This document shows, in pieces, positions 49,336 through 56,442 of a stretch of 64,000 bases of DNA. Made by a program: the position numbers and the translations under genes. The notes below the pieces were generated by a model, which did not search any database, was not told where the DNA came from, and saw nothing but the letters and a program-made list of their open reading frames with translations. Origin of the DNA: Peptoniphilus genitalis (GTDB taxonomy: Bacteria > Bacillota > Clostridia > Tissierellales > Peptoniphilaceae); contig NZ_CP097885.1 of the NCBI RefSeq assembly GCF_023614525.1, positions 124,001 to 188,000 on the forward strand. Reading direction: 5' to 3'. Positions within the stretch are counted from its first letter, which is position 1; every line of letters begins with the position of its first letter.

Positions 49336-50346
49336 CTAATTCTTATTACAATATTTTACAATTAAAGTTTCCATAATTAATTTTTCATCAATGGAGGAAG
49401 TTTTAAAAAGTTCATCAGTCTTAATTAGTTCCTCATAAAAATCAATTAAAAATTCTTTTGAGAAGTTTCTCTCAAAGCCTCTTATTTTTTTTAACTCGAA
49501 ATTTTTTACTTCCATCTTATTCATAATATCATTTTGACTTATGTTTTTTGTAGATAAAATCTTATAGGATAATAAATTTTTAACCTGCCTAATTATCATG
49601 GTAAAAATCTTTAGAGATGGCTCTCCTAACTTGTAGAGATTGTGAAGTTCCTTTAATGATTCTTCTCTCTTCCTCCCCATCATGGCATCTAAAAACTTAA
49701 AGATATTTGTATCTATGTTTTCAGTTATTGTGCTGGATATATCTTCTCGTGAAATTTTTTTATTTTTGGCATGAGAGGCAATCTTATCCATTTCGGTCTT
49801 GAGGTCTAGGAGGCTTACATCTTCATTTTTTGAATTGTAACCACTCTCTCCTATAAAAAGAGAAACTTCACTTTGACTTATTTCCTTTCCCTTCCTAATG
49901 AAGTAGCCTTTAATAAAATTGTTTAGGTCCACAGGGTTTAACTTTGCAAAGTCCATGTCCCTATCTTTTTTCTTAAAGGCCTTATAAAATTTTGTAGTTT
50001 TTTTGATGTTTGCAGTATCCCAAAAAATTAAAACTACAAAGTCAGATAAGTTATCTAAAAATTCATAGAAGGAATCTTTTAATTCATTTTCCCCTAAGAA
50101 GTCCACTACATCCCGAACAAGAACAATTTTTTTGTCATTCATTACTGGATAGGTCTCGCAAGCTGAGATAATATCCTCTGGCTTAACTTCACTTCCCTTA
50201 AACTTGGTGTAGTTAAAGGCTTCAGTCCCCTTTACATATTTATTTATTAAGTAGCCCACTGCATTTTCCATTAAATATTTTTCTGGTCCCAAAAATAAGT
50301 AGGCTCCAGAGTGGTCGCTATCTCTGTAGATTTTTTTGTAGTTCAT
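49336..50346 (-). CDS. holA: DNA polymerase III subunit delta
   Basis: This 336-residue clamp-loader delta opens the sliding clamp. The Firmicutes-type sequence has FLGPEKYLMENAVGYLI near the N-terminus and the delta-type C-terminal helical collar (MIIRQVKNLLSYKIL, about residues 245-260). It lacks Walker motifs, as expected. ATG 50346 follows GAGGAAAAA. It overlaps comEC by 29 bases, in the Bacillus order comEC-holA-rpsT. Confidence 0.93.
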   Translation of the reverse strand: MNYKKIYRDSDHSGAYLFLGPEKYLMENAVGYLINKYVKGTEAFNYTKFKGSEVKPEDIISACETYPVMNDKKIVLVRDVVDFLGENELKDSFYEFLDNLSDFVVLIFWDTANIKKTTKFYKAFKKKDRDMDFAKLNPVDLNNFIKGYFIRKGKEISQSEVSLFIGESGYNSKNEDVSLLDLKTEMDKIASHAKNKKISREDISSTITENIDTNIFKFLDAMMGRKREESLKELHNLYKLGEPSLKIFTMIIRQVKNLLSYKILSTKNISQNDIMNKMEVKNFELKKIRGFERNFSKEFLIDFYEELIKTDELFKTSSIDEKLIMETLIVKYCNKN

Positions 50347-52591
50347 AATTTTTCCTCGCCACAATATATAATAAGCTTGTGTTTAAAATAATGAGAAGCA
50401 AATAAAATTTGTAATCCTCTTCCCTATTATTTCTTTCTATTTTAAACTGATTTCCCAAAATTTTAAAATCAACTTCCCCGTCTCTTAAGGTAACATAGTA
50501 TATGATACCATGTTTTTCCAAATTCTCCAGACTCTCTTTATGGGGATGTCCATAGGAATTTTCATAGCCTGCCGAAATCACTGCAATTTTTGGCCTTGTC
50601 CTTTCTAAAAAATCATCACTTGTTGAAGTTCTGGATCCATGATGAGCAACTTTTAACAAATCAACCTTTGAATTAATTTCCCTCTCAACTTCAGCTGATA
50701 TATCTCCTGTGAAAAGAGTCTTAAAGCCCTTGTGGTCTAAGAGCAAGACCATGGACTTGTCATTTTCTTCTTCCTTCCTTTCATTGTCTAGCAAGACTTC
50801 CATGCTTGTGTACTTAAAAAGTTTTATCTTATCTCCCTTAGAAAGCTTGATAATTTTTGAATATTTTTCTCCCTCTTCTAAGATACTTAAATCTTCTGGA
50901 AGATGATTTATAAAAATATTTTTTACCTTATAGTTTTCTAAGATTTTATTTAAGTTGCCAAAGTGATCCTCATCAAAGTGGGAAATAAAAATCCCATCTA
51001 TTCTAGTAATACCCCTTAGCCTTAGGCTTGGAAATAAATACTTTTCTGCAATTTTATTATCAAACCTAGCCCCACCAGTATCAATGAGATAATTCCTTCC
51101 CTTATATGAAATTAAGGCACAGTCCCCCTGGTCTATATAGAGCTGACTTATCTCAAAGGTCATAAGGTCTCTGTATATGCCAAAGCCCATTAATAAAAAT
51201 ACAAGTGCCCCATAAATTTCTATTATTTTTAAGTTAGGCCTAATGATTTCATCTAGCTTTCTCCTATTCAAAATTACAAGAAGCAAGATGTAGTAGATAA
51301 AAATATATTCGAACTTAAAGGCTTTTAATGTTAAAAATATTGACCCCTTAGAAAGCAGGATACTTTCAAGTCCATAAGTAGCATTCATTAACAGATTTAG
51401 AAATCTTCCAAGCAAACCTGGAAAAATTCCAAGACCCATGAGAAAACCTAAGGATATGATAAGAGAATAAATTGGAACTATTATTAAGTTTGCAAGAAAA
51501 ACTAAAATAGAAAAACCTGAAAAATAATAATTTATTAATGGGAAAACTGAAATTATTACTGACAAGGTCCCAACAAATGACTTACTAATTAGGCTCCTAC
51601 TTGAAACTCTTTCAATGAGGTTTGGATAGACAAAAATTAAGCCAAAAATTGCACCATAGGAAAGTAAAAGTGAGATAGAATAAATTGCCATGGGATTTAT
51701 TAAAAGTATAATTGATAGACTTAAAAAGAGAATATCTTTCGTGTCTATGTCCTCTTCTAAGTAAGTGTTGCCCTTGTACAAGATGTAAAACAAGAAGGCA
51801 CGCAGACCTGAAATTGGAAATCCAATTGTCATTATGTAAAAAGATAAAATAACAAACAAGCTAAAGTCCGTAAACTTTTTATTCTTGCTCAGGTTTTTAA
51901 TTATAAATTCTAAAAAGAGAGCTAGAACTCCAATGTGAAGACCTGACACAGCTAAGATGTGGCTCATGCCAAGAGAGTTAAACCTGTCTCTTTCCATAGA
52001 GTCAACTAAAGATTTATCAGCTAAGATAAGTGATCCCATTAAGCCAGAATTTCTTTCGTTTAAATATTTATTAAAAAAATATTTTGCCCTTTCAATAAAT
52101 AAATTTGAAAACCTATAAATCCCTCTTGGTTCAGATATTTTTTCATAACTACTTATCTTTCCAAGAAGATAAATCCCCTGAGACTTATTGTTCTTCTCAT
52201 AGTCAAAGGTCCCCTTGTTCATGGCAGGAAGAGGTGGATAAAATTTCCCCTGAACTTTATACCTTCCTCCCCTTTCTAGTTTTTCATAAACTAAGACCTT
52301 AGTCTTAAATTTTTTTCTATTAAGATATTCTGTCTTAATAATAGATTTGTTTTCATTAGACAAAACAACCTTACCTATAACTTGCCCATCAAAGGGCTTT
52401 AAGCTGTAGTCCCTGAAGTTAAAATTTATAAAAACAAATAAAATCACTAGAGGCAAGTATAAAAATTTATATCTATCTTTAAGAGATAAAATATAAGCGG
52501 TAGTAATAAGAAAAATTATTCCCACAAGAAGATAGGATTTTATGTAAATTGAAAGTATAAGACCAAAGATTACTCCTGCGAATAAGTACAT
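50318..52591 (-). CDS. comEC: DNA internalisation channel ComEC/Rec2
   Basis: This 757-residue polytopic membrane protein forms the channel that takes up single-stranded DNA in natural competence. An N-terminal OB-like domain (about residues 55-150) precedes the Competence domain with HILAVSGLHIGVLALFLE. The C-terminal metallo-beta-lactamase domain has FISHFDEDHFGNLN and HHGSRTSTS, presumed to degrade the non-transported strand. ATG 52591 follows GAGGGG. No comEA was seen beside it. It overlaps holA. Confidence 0.95.
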   Translation of the reverse strand: MYLFAGVIFGLILSIYIKSYLLVGIIFLITTAYILSLKDRYKFLYLPLVILFVFINFNFRDYSLKPFDGQVIGKVVLSNENKSIIKTEYLNRKKFKTKVLVYEKLERGGRYKVQGKFYPPLPAMNKGTFDYEKNNKSQGIYLLGKISSYEKISEPRGIYRFSNLFIERAKYFFNKYLNERNSGLMGSLILADKSLVDSMERDRFNSLGMSHILAVSGLHIGVLALFLEFIIKNLSKNKKFTDFSLFVILSFYIMTIGFPISGLRAFLFYILYKGNTYLEEDIDTKDILFLSLSIILLINPMAIYSISLLLSYGAIFGLIFVYPNLIERVSSRSLISKSFVGTLSVIISVFPLINYYFSGFSILVFLANLIIVPIYSLIISLGFLMGLGIFPGLLGRFLNLLMNATYGLESILLSKGSIFLTLKAFKFEYIFIYYILLLVILNRRKLDEIIRPNLKIIEIYGALVFLLMGFGIYRDLMTFEISQLYIDQGDCALISYKGRNYLIDTGGARFDNKIAEKYLFPSLRLRGITRIDGIFISHFDEDHFGNLNKILENYKVKNIFINHLPEDLSILEEGEKYSKIIKLSKGDKIKLFKYTSMEVLLDNERKEEENDKSMVLLLDHKGFKTLFTGDISAEVEREINSKVDLLKVAHHGSRTSTSDDFLERTRPKIAVISAGYENSYGHPHKESLENLEKHGIIYYVTLRDGEVDFKILGNQFKIERNNREEDYKFYLLLIILNTSLLYIVARKNYELQKNLQR

Positions 52592-52666
52592 AGGCACCCC
52601 TCTTCATTATATATCTTTTTGAGGTCATGGACCATGAAATATGTTAATATATTAGAGGAGGTAATT

Positions 52667-54523
52667 ATGAATTTAGTTTACAAAAACCCTTACAAGACAA
52701 AGTACAAATTAGAAATAATTGATAAAATAAATCGCGACGGAATTACTTATGGGAAGCTTGAAAATCCTCCTTACTTCTTAGGAAGTGAAAGAGTTTCAGC
52801 TGATCAAATTAAAATAAATGGAGAAGAGCCTAAGTTTTTATCAGGCAACAAGTCTTATTTTAAAATTGATGAAGGCACAAAGAATGTAGAAATTGAAATT
52901 GGATGGAAAAACAGACTCCTTCTCATGCAAGAAAATCTTGGCAATGCCCTAGTGAGACATTTTTTAAAATCCAACACAAACATAGATATTATTGGCTACA
53001 AAGTCGAGAACTCTTCATCCTATATTGACGTATCTGCAAAAGATTTTAAGTTTATGACTGCAAAAAATATCGAGTCTCTTGCCAACTACGCAGTATTTTC
53101 CAACCTTGCCATTGAAAGTTTTGGCGACCACATTTCTATTGAAAGACTTGCCGACATCCCTTATGAAGGTCCAGCCCTATCAAGAACTGGTGAAATTGGA
53201 ATGATTTTTATTTCTTCTGTTGAGAAGCTAAATTCACTAATTAGGCTTAGGGTCACATCAGGAGAAAATGCCTACAAGTTAGCCCGTAACTCTTTAAACA
53301 TCTTAGACAATATGAAGATGTATCTAAATAGCGACAGCATTAACTCAGTCTTTTCTGATGTTAAAAAGTTAAGAGCTAATATGAATTCATCAAAAAATTC
53401 TCATAAAGATGCAGAATACGAAAAAGTTGGAGATTTTGATAAAGTCCTAAAAGAAGAAAAGGCTGTTAACCCTATTAAAGTGGCAGAAACTATTGATTAT
53501 AAAAACATTGATGGAGTTAAAGATGATTTAGGTGATAGTGAAAGTTCTGCAAGCAAAATCGCAAATAAAAACTCAGAAGAAAAAGACTTGCTTGAAGAAA
53601 AAAAAGAAACTTCTAAAGAAATAGAAGACTTCAAACAAAAAGAAAAATATGATGCAAACTTCTTCCACGAAAAATATAAACTTGAATCCTTTAAGGACTT
53701 AAACAAATTCAAAACTTCAAGTGAAGATAAAGAATCCATAGAAACTAATAAAAAAGAAATTAACAATAAAGATGAAAAAATTAATCAAGTTAAAAGAGAA
53801 GAAAAATACGATGCAAAATTCTTTCACGAAAAATATAAACTTGAATCCTTTAAGGATTTAAACAAATTCAAAACTTCAAATGATGATAAAGAATCCATAG
53901 AAACTAATAAAAAAGAAATTAGCGATAAAGATAAAATAAACACTGAAGTTAAAAAGGCAGAAAAGTACGATGCAAAATTCTTCCATGAAAAATACAAACT
54001 CGAATCCTTTAAGGACCTAAATAAATTTAAAAGTACTAATGAAGATGAAAACTCTGGGAAAGAGTCATTGAAGGAAGAAGAGTCAAATAATAAAAATTCA
54101 AAAGAAAAAGATGCATCTTCTATAAAGCTTAACAAGAAAGAAGATGAAGAGAGGACTTCCCTCTTCTACCAAGCAGTAGATAGCTTTAAAAACTTTTCCA
54201 CTGAATTTTCTGGTCTAAATTATATCTATAAGGTCCTTCAAGATATAAACTTAAAAGAACTTCGTGAAATTTCAAATTATATCTTAAAAGAAGATGACTT
54301 CATACAAATTTACGGACTTAAAAATGGATCCAAATCAAAAATTATAATCCTAAGATCACAAAATCTAAACTTTGATCTCAAGAAGATCTTTGAAAAATTA
54401 AAAGACCACTTCACTTTCACAGGGACAGGCAATATGTACACCCTAGACATCCAATGCAAGGAAGAAGACTTAACTAGAATTATGGAATCCTTCCTAATCG
54501 AAATAAGAAGAGAAGCAAAATAA
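52667..54523 (+). CDS. AlaX-like alanyl-tRNA editing homologue that has lost its zinc ligands, with 53-residue repeats
   Basis: This 618-residue protein follows the plan of long AlaX editing proteins. The N-terminal domain begins NLVYKNPY. It continues to a tRNA_SAD-like part with LLLMQENLGNALV (about 84-96) and GPALSRTGEIGMIFI (about 168-182). These align with the AlaX blocks MQQHxGxHLLS and CGTHVxxTGEIG. The two His become Asn90 and Ala94, the Cys becomes Glu167 and the His Ala170, so the metal site is gone. Residues about 326-460 hold tandem repeats, and the last 85 residues resemble DHHA1 but lack its Gly cluster. ATG 52667 follows AGAGGAGG. The comparison is from memory of the family. 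A binding role rather than catalysis is inferred. Confidence 0.7.
   Translation: MNLVYKNPYKTKYKLEIIDKINRDGITYGKLENPPYFLGSERVSADQIKINGEEPKFLSGNKSYFKIDEGTKNVEIEIGWKNRLLLMQENLGNALVRHFLKSNTNIDIIGYKVENSSSYIDVSAKDFKFMTAKNIESLANYAVFSNLAIESFGDHISIERLADIPYEGPALSRTGEIGMIFISSVEKLNSLIRLRVTSGENAYKLARNSLNILDNMKMYLNSDSINSVFSDVKKLRANMNSSKNSHKDAEYEKVGDFDKVLKEEKAVNPIKVAETIDYKNIDGVKDDLGDSESSASKIANKNSEEKDLLEEKKETSKEIEDFKQKEKYDANFFHEKYKLESFKDLNKFKTSSEDKESIETNKKEINNKDEKINQVKREEKYDAKFFHEKYKLESFKDLNKFKTSNDDKESIETNKKEISDKDKINTEVKKAEKYDAKFFHEKYKLESFKDLNKFKSTNEDENSGKESLKEEESNNKNSKEKDASSIKLNKKEDEERTSLFYQAVDSFKNFSTEFSGLNYIYKVLQDINLKELREISNYILKEDDFIQIYGLKNGSKSKIIILRSQNLNFDLKKIFEKLKDHFTFTGTGNMYTLDIQCKEEDLTRIMESFLIEIRREAK
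53642..54035 (+). repeat. Three tandem 159-bp coding repeats
   Basis: Copies start at 53642, 53801 and 53960, an exact 159-bp period (53 codons). Each encodes KYDA-N/K-FFHEKYKLESFKD then LNKFK. The third copy is partial. Copies 1 and 2 share nearly the whole unit including the linker KESIETNKKEI. Confidence 0.9.
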
Positions 54524-55309: not shown

Positions 55310-55936
55310 ATGAAAAAGTTTTTAATTTTTATTTTCTCAATGATAATACTAACATCTTGTAACTCTCAAACAAGAAAATCTGACAATATGACTGTGAATT
55401 TAGATGAGTTTTATAAAACTAAACCTATATCTACATATATTCAATCTGTTGATTTTGTAACATCAAAAAATCTTACGGAAAAGGTATCAAAAACTTATAA
55501 TTCTTTAGATGAACTAGAAAAAGATTTAAGATTAAATTTTCTTCATTCCAGTTTTTTTAATCAATCTGATTACGACACTATTTATTTTAATGATGATTAT
55601 TTTTCTAAAATATATTTATTTAAAGAAGATATAAATCCTTATTATTTTGGTGTTAGAAATTTGGGAAATGATAGAAGTTTAATTTTAGAAATATCGTGGA
55701 AAAACAATCCAAATGAAGCACCATATTCAGTAGAATTAATGGGCGGAAGCGAAATTATCGAAAACTATGATATAAATTCGATAAATATCTCTATAATTAA
55801 AGAATCAAGAGGCAAAAATGTTTTTTATTCTGGTATTTTTAAATTTAATGATATGACCTACTTTATTAAAAATTCTAAGGATTTAGATGCTTTAAAAAAC
55901 ATAATCCAAGATCTTTTAAATATCAAAAAGGACTGA
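55310..55936 (+). CDS. Lipoprotein of unknown function
   Basis: This 208-residue lipoprotein has a signal ending ILTSC (Cys17). The mature protein is Asn/Asp/Tyr-rich with alternating strands and has no known catalytic motif. No family recognised. RBS GGAGG precedes ATG 55310. Its divergent partner is secreted, so both act outside the membrane, and the shared promoter region suggests linked or opposed expression. A terminator follows at the stop codon. Confidence 0.7.
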   Translation: MKKFLIFIFSMIILTSCNSQTRKSDNMTVNLDEFYKTKPISTYIQSVDFVTSKNLTEKVSKTYNSLDELEKDLRLNFLHSSFFNQSDYDTIYFNDDYFSKIYLFKEDINPYYFGVRNLGNDRSLILEISWKNNPNEAPYSVELMGGSEIIENYDINSINISIIKESRGKNVFYSGIFKFNDMTYFIKNSKDLDALKNIIQDLLNIKKD

Positions 55937-56109: not shown

Positions 56110-56442
56110 CTCTATAATTTTTTATTAAGCGGAGTTGATAATCATTGTAATATGTACGCCGACAAGGGTTACCAAATGGTTAAGGCCCAATACACTCGTG
56201 CAGAAGAATTTGGTGGCATTTATGTAAATATAAATGAAACTTTATATCCTGGCGATGTATTGTTCTACAAAAATCCAAAATGGACTTATGGCTACAATCA
56301 TGCTGCAATTTATCTAGGTCTTAATGGCGGAAGAAAAATTATAGTTCACGCAACTCTAGCAGACGGACTCGTAAGTGAGTCTGAGTCAAAGGTTTACTCA
56401 TGGGGTTATCAACCCTTAAGGGCTGTGAGATATTTAAAATAA
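56110..56442 (+). pseudogene. 5'-truncated remnant of an NlpC/P60 or CHAP-like cell-wall hydrolase
   Basis: The open frame from 56110 encodes about 110 residues matching the C-terminal half of a C40-type hydrolase. It has LYPGDVLFYKNPKW, the catalytic-His strand YNHAAIYLG and IIVHATLADG. A cysteine in NHCNMYADKGY (about 14 codons into the frame) may be the former nucleophile. No start codon with an RBS is present and a stop codon lies just upstream, so the signal peptide and N-terminal domain are missing. I judge it non-functional. Confidence 0.65.

Follow-up and report, generated by a model that had tools for sequence, protein, structure and literature searches.

A comEC-divergent AlaX-like protein of Peptoniphilus that lacks every zinc ligand is a probable pseudoenzyme

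The window, by which we mean the whole stretch of 64,000 nucleotides that was analyzed, comes from a Peptoniphilus species near P. vaginalis (95%) and P. harei (89%), as judged by identity of the N-terminal domain described below, and carries a gene for an AlaX-like protein lying divergently from comEC (Table 1). In the window sequence the frame runs from an ATG at 52667 to a stop codon at 54521-54523, and an alignment of the genus loci gives the orthologs a conserved start and Shine-Dalgarno region. This conservation of the ATG and of its ribosome-binding site makes the upstream TTG at 52619, the start given by a mechanical listing, an unlikely one. The gene looks monocistronic from its sequence context, with a terminator-like hairpin immediately downstream of the stop codon, and we found no operon partner at the locus in the window. 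Elsewhere in the window, 56152-56442 encodes a small 96-aa NlpC/P60-like fragment, with a Pfam match just below cut-off; the fragment lies near a predicted lipoprotein (55310-55936) and may be a truncated cell-wall hydrolase.

Table 1. Coordinates of the AlaX-like gene, its neighbor and its parts within the window.
Feature	Coordinates	Strand	Basis or remark
comEC, divergent neighbor	50318..52597	-	conserved synteny, older than ligand loss
Shine-Dalgarno AGGAGG	52656..52661	+	sequence; conserved 5' of genus orthologs
Metal-free AlaX-like gene	52667..54523	+	618 aa plus stop; orthologs in 14/14 genomes of genus
N-terminal AlaX/AlaRS-editing-type domain (aa 1-241)	52667..53389	+	profile vs PDB 3kew; AF2; ortholog model
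Asn90, in place of zinc-ligand His 1	52934..52936	+	alignment; invariant in g1+g4+g38
Ala94, in place of zinc-ligand His 2	52946..52948	+	alignment
Lys112, in place of His found in 97% of canonical AlaX	53000..53002	+	
Tyr166, in place of zinc-ligand Cys	53162..53164	+	alignment
Pro169, new invariant residue; canonical AlaX mostly Thr	53171..53173	+	
Ala170, in place of zinc-ligand His 3	53174..53176	+	alignment
Disordered K/E-rich linker (aa 242-494)	53390..54148	+	AF2 pLDDT; dN/dS 0.28-0.89
Linker repeat 1, motif EKYDANFFHEKYKLESFKDLNKF	53642..53710	+	
Linker repeat 2, motif EKYDAKFFHEKYKLESFKDLNKF	53801..53869	+	
Linker repeat 3, motif EKYDAKFFHEKYKLESFKDLNKF	53960..54028	+	
C-Ala/DHHA1-type domain (aa 495-618)	54149..54520	+	ortholog model vs 3g98; dN/dS 0.03-0.15
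GTGN, remnant of C-Ala KGGG(N/S) motif	54422..54433	+	alignment
Terminator-like hairpin directly 3' of stop codon	54525..54566	+	gene looks monocistronic

A Pfam search with the window protein returned no match, and the NCBIfam AlaXM model (NF040865) matched it weakly (E 1.4e-5, with 24.9 bits against a curated cut-off of 300 bits), as it also did 20 of 26 orthologs. PDB entry 3kew, a clostridial AlaX-like structure, was matched by the single window sequence with an E-value of 3.7e-5 and by a profile of 18 orthologs with one of 1.2e-19. The AlphaFold2 (AF2) model of a linker-free ortholog from P. stercorisuis (L144, 375 aa) was confident (mean pLDDT 85) and matched 3kew (fold Z 21.4), the AlaX-M structure 9iuw (Z 20.0) and, over its full length, the A. 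fulgidus AlaRS 3wqy (Z 19.8). Residues 264-369 of this model matched the C-Ala structure 3g98 (Z 12.0), and the C-terminal domain of the window protein can be aligned with that of the ortholog. For the window protein itself, AF2 predicted residues 1-242 and 496-618 with confidence, with pLDDT mostly 75-96 in the N-terminal block. The layout of the 618 residues is an AlaRS-like editing domain (1-241), a disordered K/E-rich linker and a C-Ala/DHHA1 domain (495-618), and by its sequence profiles and predicted models the protein is assigned to the AlaX-L type. The AlaX/AlaRS editing framework that an earlier note had read from the letters alone is thus matched by profiles and models alike, and the superposition on AlaX that it called for recovers both the editing domain and C-Ala/DHHA1.

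We set the zinc-ligand positions by aligning the protein with canonical AlaX and with the AlaRS of this genome (NHSVTH, CGGTH). Both ligand pairs, H-x3-H and C-x3-H, are absent, with Asn90/Ala94 and Tyr166/Ala170 standing in their places. The claim of the earlier note that every zinc ligand had been replaced therefore holds at 4/4 positions; its reading of the His-x3-His pair as Asn90 and Ala94 is correct, and of its reading of a Cys-x2-His pair as Glu167 and Ala170, Ala170 stands, whereas Glu167 has to shift by one residue: the canonical second motif has the spacing Cys-x3-His (CGGTH), which makes Tyr166 the equivalent of the Cys. The GGQ-x2-D loop is replaced in the window protein by SERVSAD, with the Asp (D46) alone retained, and two more histidines (columns 65 and 112), which canonical AlaX proteins retain with few or no exceptions, are gone. 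In a comparison of 30 canonical AlaX sequences with 33 metal-free ones from the wider clade around the window protein, the six His/Cys columns conserved at 97% or more in the canonical set were all lost in the metal-free set, and no conserved His or Cys that might form an alternative metal site was left in the domain across those 33 sequences; intact metal ligands elsewhere in the fold were what the earlier note had said would overturn its reading. The fold residues that are kept are Y9, D46, R83, Q88, E136, N140, G168, T174 and G199.

In the C-terminal domain, the canonical KGGG(N/S)...QGG aligns with TGTGN, so that KGGG itself is missing, and the equivalent position is variable among orthologs. 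The loss of the Gly-rich motif reported by the earlier note is in essence right, although a G-x-G-N remains. In C. elegans C-Ala, the Lys of the KGGG motif reads G18 of the tRNA D-loop (PMC10485164); equating this Lys with the KGGG Lys of AlaX is an alignment by motif.

Comparison with known relatives places these losses on an otherwise familiar scaffold. The N-terminal domain of the ortholog model resembles AlaX-M (PDB 2e1b and 9iuw) and 3kew with Z 18.5-21.4 and rmsd 2.5-2.8 A over 195-202 residues, but 3kew has H/H/C/H by sequence whereas the window protein has none of the four. AlaX-L/AlaXp proteins, such as the canonical clostridial AlaX that G267 and G290 have at this locus, show the same domain order, folds, scaffold residues and comEC-divergent position. 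In contrast to them, the window protein is without the four zinc ligands, the GGQ loop, the two further histidines and the KGGG motif, and the window's species has a repeat-bearing linker inserted.

This linker of about 250 residues (AF2 pLDDT below 50 at 243-318 and 328-495) contains three near-identical 53-residue repeats, overlooked by the earlier note, which start at residues 326, 379 and 432 and each contain EKYDA(K/N)FFHEKYKLESFKDLNKF. P. vaginalis has two copies, and other orthologs have three, two, one or none. The motif is near-identical between species while the remaining linker is fast-evolving, and no other protein of the genome contains it; this suggests a short binding motif present in several copies. 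The N-terminal domain occurs alone in three genomes (G005, G008 and G053), elsewhere in which no C-terminal domain was found, and therefore the N-terminal domain carries the indispensable part. A charge analysis of the domains found the N-terminal one near neutral, which neither favors nor excludes RNA binding.

Between members of the genus, dN/dS by the Nei-Gojobori method, with dS near saturation in some pairs, is 0.05-0.13 for the N-terminal domain, 0.03-0.15 for the C-terminal domain and 0.28-0.89 for the linker. Purifying selection acts strongly on both folded domains. The 19 sequences of the Peptoniphilus-type members (g1+g4+g38, down to 29% identity) all have Asn90 and Tyr166, and nearly all have Ala94 and Lys/Arg112; these columns are among the most conserved. 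The wider clade has three further fixed residues, D126, P169 and K233, and a nearly fixed N215, at positions where canonical AlaX is variable or has another residue. The pattern reads as replaced constraint rather than decay. The earlier note had taken the protein for a pseudoenzyme, perhaps repurposed, and had proposed that conservation be examined in related genomes. There the metal-free state is retained under purifying selection, and with the fold matched, the ligands gone and no replacement site present, the pseudoenzyme reading gains support. Repurposing is better supported than could be seen from one sequence, because the residues now in the ligand positions have become fixed, as have several new positions. 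The features of a pseudoenzyme, namely orthology to an active family, loss of catalytic residues and purifying selection, are all present, and inactivity is probable; loss of zinc alone is no proof that catalysis was lost.

To place the loss among relatives, we counted ligands in the AlaX-like proteins of the window's family (f1; n=61): 50 have no ligand, five have one, one has two (G090, H-L-C-L) and five have all four. Outside this family, HHCH was present in 25/25 proteins of a first census, and 40 further proteins had HHCH (35) or H-E-C-H (5). As a ligand set is kept in 65/65 proteins checked outside f1, the loss is, within the genome sample, confined to this family and does not stem from the search. 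Elsewhere in f1 the ligand positions read N-I-S-L (g2) or I-A-S-V (g36), and to judge by these residues the genera did not all rebuild the pocket alike. The ComEC tree requires at least two changes of ligand state. We do not claim repeated independent loss because the AU test does not reject a single metal-free clade (p 0.079).

The gene is divergent from comEC in 38/39 loci examined in f1 and its sister family f2. The f2 loci with an intact, ligand-bearing AlaX have it in this same position, as do five f1 genomes with a canonical AlaX. The divergent region common to the gene and comEC, pointed out in the earlier note, is thereby confirmed as an arrangement that predates the ligand loss, and since intact AlaX occupies the same place in f2, the comEC neighbor carries no functional information. 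The window gene is a converted ortholog of a clostridial AlaX-L-type protein at an ancestral comEC-divergent locus.

We also asked which other editing factors the cell has. Matches to tRNA_SAD in the genome comprise two open frames only, of 873 and 639 aa, which we read as AlaRS and ThrRS; a second intact AlaX was not found by this search, and the window protein is the only AlaX-like protein of the cell. The genome's AlaRS has H-x3-H and CGGTH intact, and DTD is present in this genome and in 129/130 genomes of the family. With the AlaRS motifs intact and DTD present, editing is covered without the window protein. Two other ideas were therefore rejected, namely that the protein had gained importance from a loss of AlaRS editing and that an absence of DTD was a correlate. 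Similar to this case, the degenerate editing domains of Mycoplasma ThrRS, PheRS and LeuRS (PMC7373986) have lost editing residues in host-associated bacteria, but those are domains of essential synthetases, whereas the window protein is free-standing and selected despite intact AlaRS editing motifs.

The reading we prefer, with a probability of roughly 0.45, is that this metal-free AlaX ortholog, kept by strong purifying selection, serves as a non-catalytic binding protein or adaptor. The conservation pattern suggests an AlaX-derived protein, not a decaying relic, that probably functions in non-catalytic binding. It would no longer deacylate mischarged tRNA; the AlaX-type domain would be the essential docking part, its former active site filled by the fixed Asn90, Tyr166 and Pro169, with the C-Ala domain and the multivalent disordered linker adding further contacts. 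The likeliest role would be that of a protein-interaction adaptor connected with translation, with AlaRS, the ribosome or another protein as candidate partners, followed by tRNA binding without hydrolysis and then by a metal-free enzyme. What would connect the protein with translation is its ancestry only, and the gene neighbors indicate no binding partner. A fold match (4ce4 chain c, Z 12.6; also 8k2a chain Lm) is to mitoribosomal large-subunit chains that we take to be mL39, a relative of the ThrRS editing domain, and offers a precedent for the recruitment of an editing-domain fold into a ribosome. Unlike the window protein, mL39 derives from ThrRS rather than AlaX, and its likeness to the bacterial protein is by fold alone. 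We would tentatively extend the argument to most of f1, where a free-standing editing enzyme may have been converted, perhaps more than once, to a conserved metal-free protein with a rebuilt pocket of fixed Asn/Tyr/Lys and a new function, possibly in association with the ribosome or a synthetase, or as an enzyme that works without metal. One new function shared by the whole family is less supported, as the replacing residues differ by genus (e.g., N-I-S-L in g2).

Binding could also be directed at tRNA or aminoacyl-tRNA, the protein docking on the acceptor stem and elbow and, for example, holding or delivering tRNA(Ala) without hydrolysis. The full-length fold match to the editing and C-Ala half of AlaRS (3wqy) and the kept scaffold residues of the editing domain speak for this, but the KGGG whose Lys reads G18 in C. 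elegans C-Ala (PMC10485164) is TGTGN here, and the residue at this position varies among orthologs. Charge enrichment is also lacking and several orthologs have no C-Ala domain, and we regard tRNA binding as a rather unlikely reading. Still less probable is a metal-independent enzyme with Asn90, Tyr166 and Lys112 as its new pocket and perhaps a small ester or a different aminoacyl-tRNA as substrate. D-aminoacyl-tRNA deacylases work without metal and offer a precedent, and the pocket residues are fixed or nearly so in g1+g4+g38 down to 29% identity; against this, the GGQ substrate loop is deleted and the pocket differs between genera (g2 and g36), which would be odd for one catalytic site.

That the gene is instead a decaying AlaX relic under relaxed constraint, like the degenerate editing sites reported for bacteria that are restricted to hosts and have reduced genomes (PMC7373986), would agree with the frame interruptions in G121 and in P. 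timonensis (L139), with repeated loss of the C-terminal domain and with the two ligands retained in G090. Such decay is contradicted in the window's clade by dN/dS of 0.03-0.15 on both domains, by presence in 14/14 genomes of the genus and by new invariant residues, and we hold it very improbable here, while it may apply to some distant genera. The last candidate, a competence or DNA-uptake factor acting with ComEC from a common promoter region, draws on the conserved divergent arrangement (38/39 loci) and on the capacity of C-Ala domains to bind DNA (PMC10485164). A canonical, ligand-bearing AlaX in the same position in f2 and five f1 genomes makes the neighborhood the older of the two, however, and in G057 the gene is retained while the 6.3 kb examined there contain no comEC. 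We rejected a competence role as something to be drawn from ancestral synteny, and it has the slimmest chance of all the readings.

AlaX is usually regarded as a widespread backup proofreader that guards alanine codons against serine. In this family of human-associated anaerobes the protein was retained and its chemistry discarded, with AlaRS editing motifs and DTD still there. As the defining catalytic features of AlaX are missing, we file the window protein as an AlaX-derived probable pseudoenzyme and not as an alanyl-tRNA editing protein; present annotation models miss such proteins or would wrongly label them editing enzymes. While AlaX, C-Ala and degenerate editing domains are already known (PMC11295145, PMC7373986), our search of the open literature turned up no account of a metal-free AlaX family, although one may exist, and no paper on AlaX in Peptoniphilus. 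Across related genomes, one syntenic locus holds intact AlaX, the partly degenerate G090 form and metal-free forms, so that the conversion of the enzyme into a pseudoenzyme can be traced stepwise.

Several further variants were seen among the loci. In P. timonensis (L139, 3959-5565) the frame (344 aa) is broken in the linker and the C-terminal domain is encoded further on in a different frame; a sequencing error, a defect of the strain or slippage at an A-rich run may each be the cause. The g36 genome G121 (L023/L062) has the gene in pieces, with its C-terminal domain in two frames, and its relative G119 has an intact 500-aa form. Outside f1, five loci (L178-L182, in G260, G151, G211, G133 and G344) encode a short AlaX-M-like subfamily of about 215 aa with H-x3-Glu for H-x3-H and an intact C-x3-H. 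Finally, the comEC-divergent locus of g3 (L096-L099, L101 and L120-L124) encodes a highly diverged protein of about 204 aa that consists of the N-terminal domain only and is without ligands.
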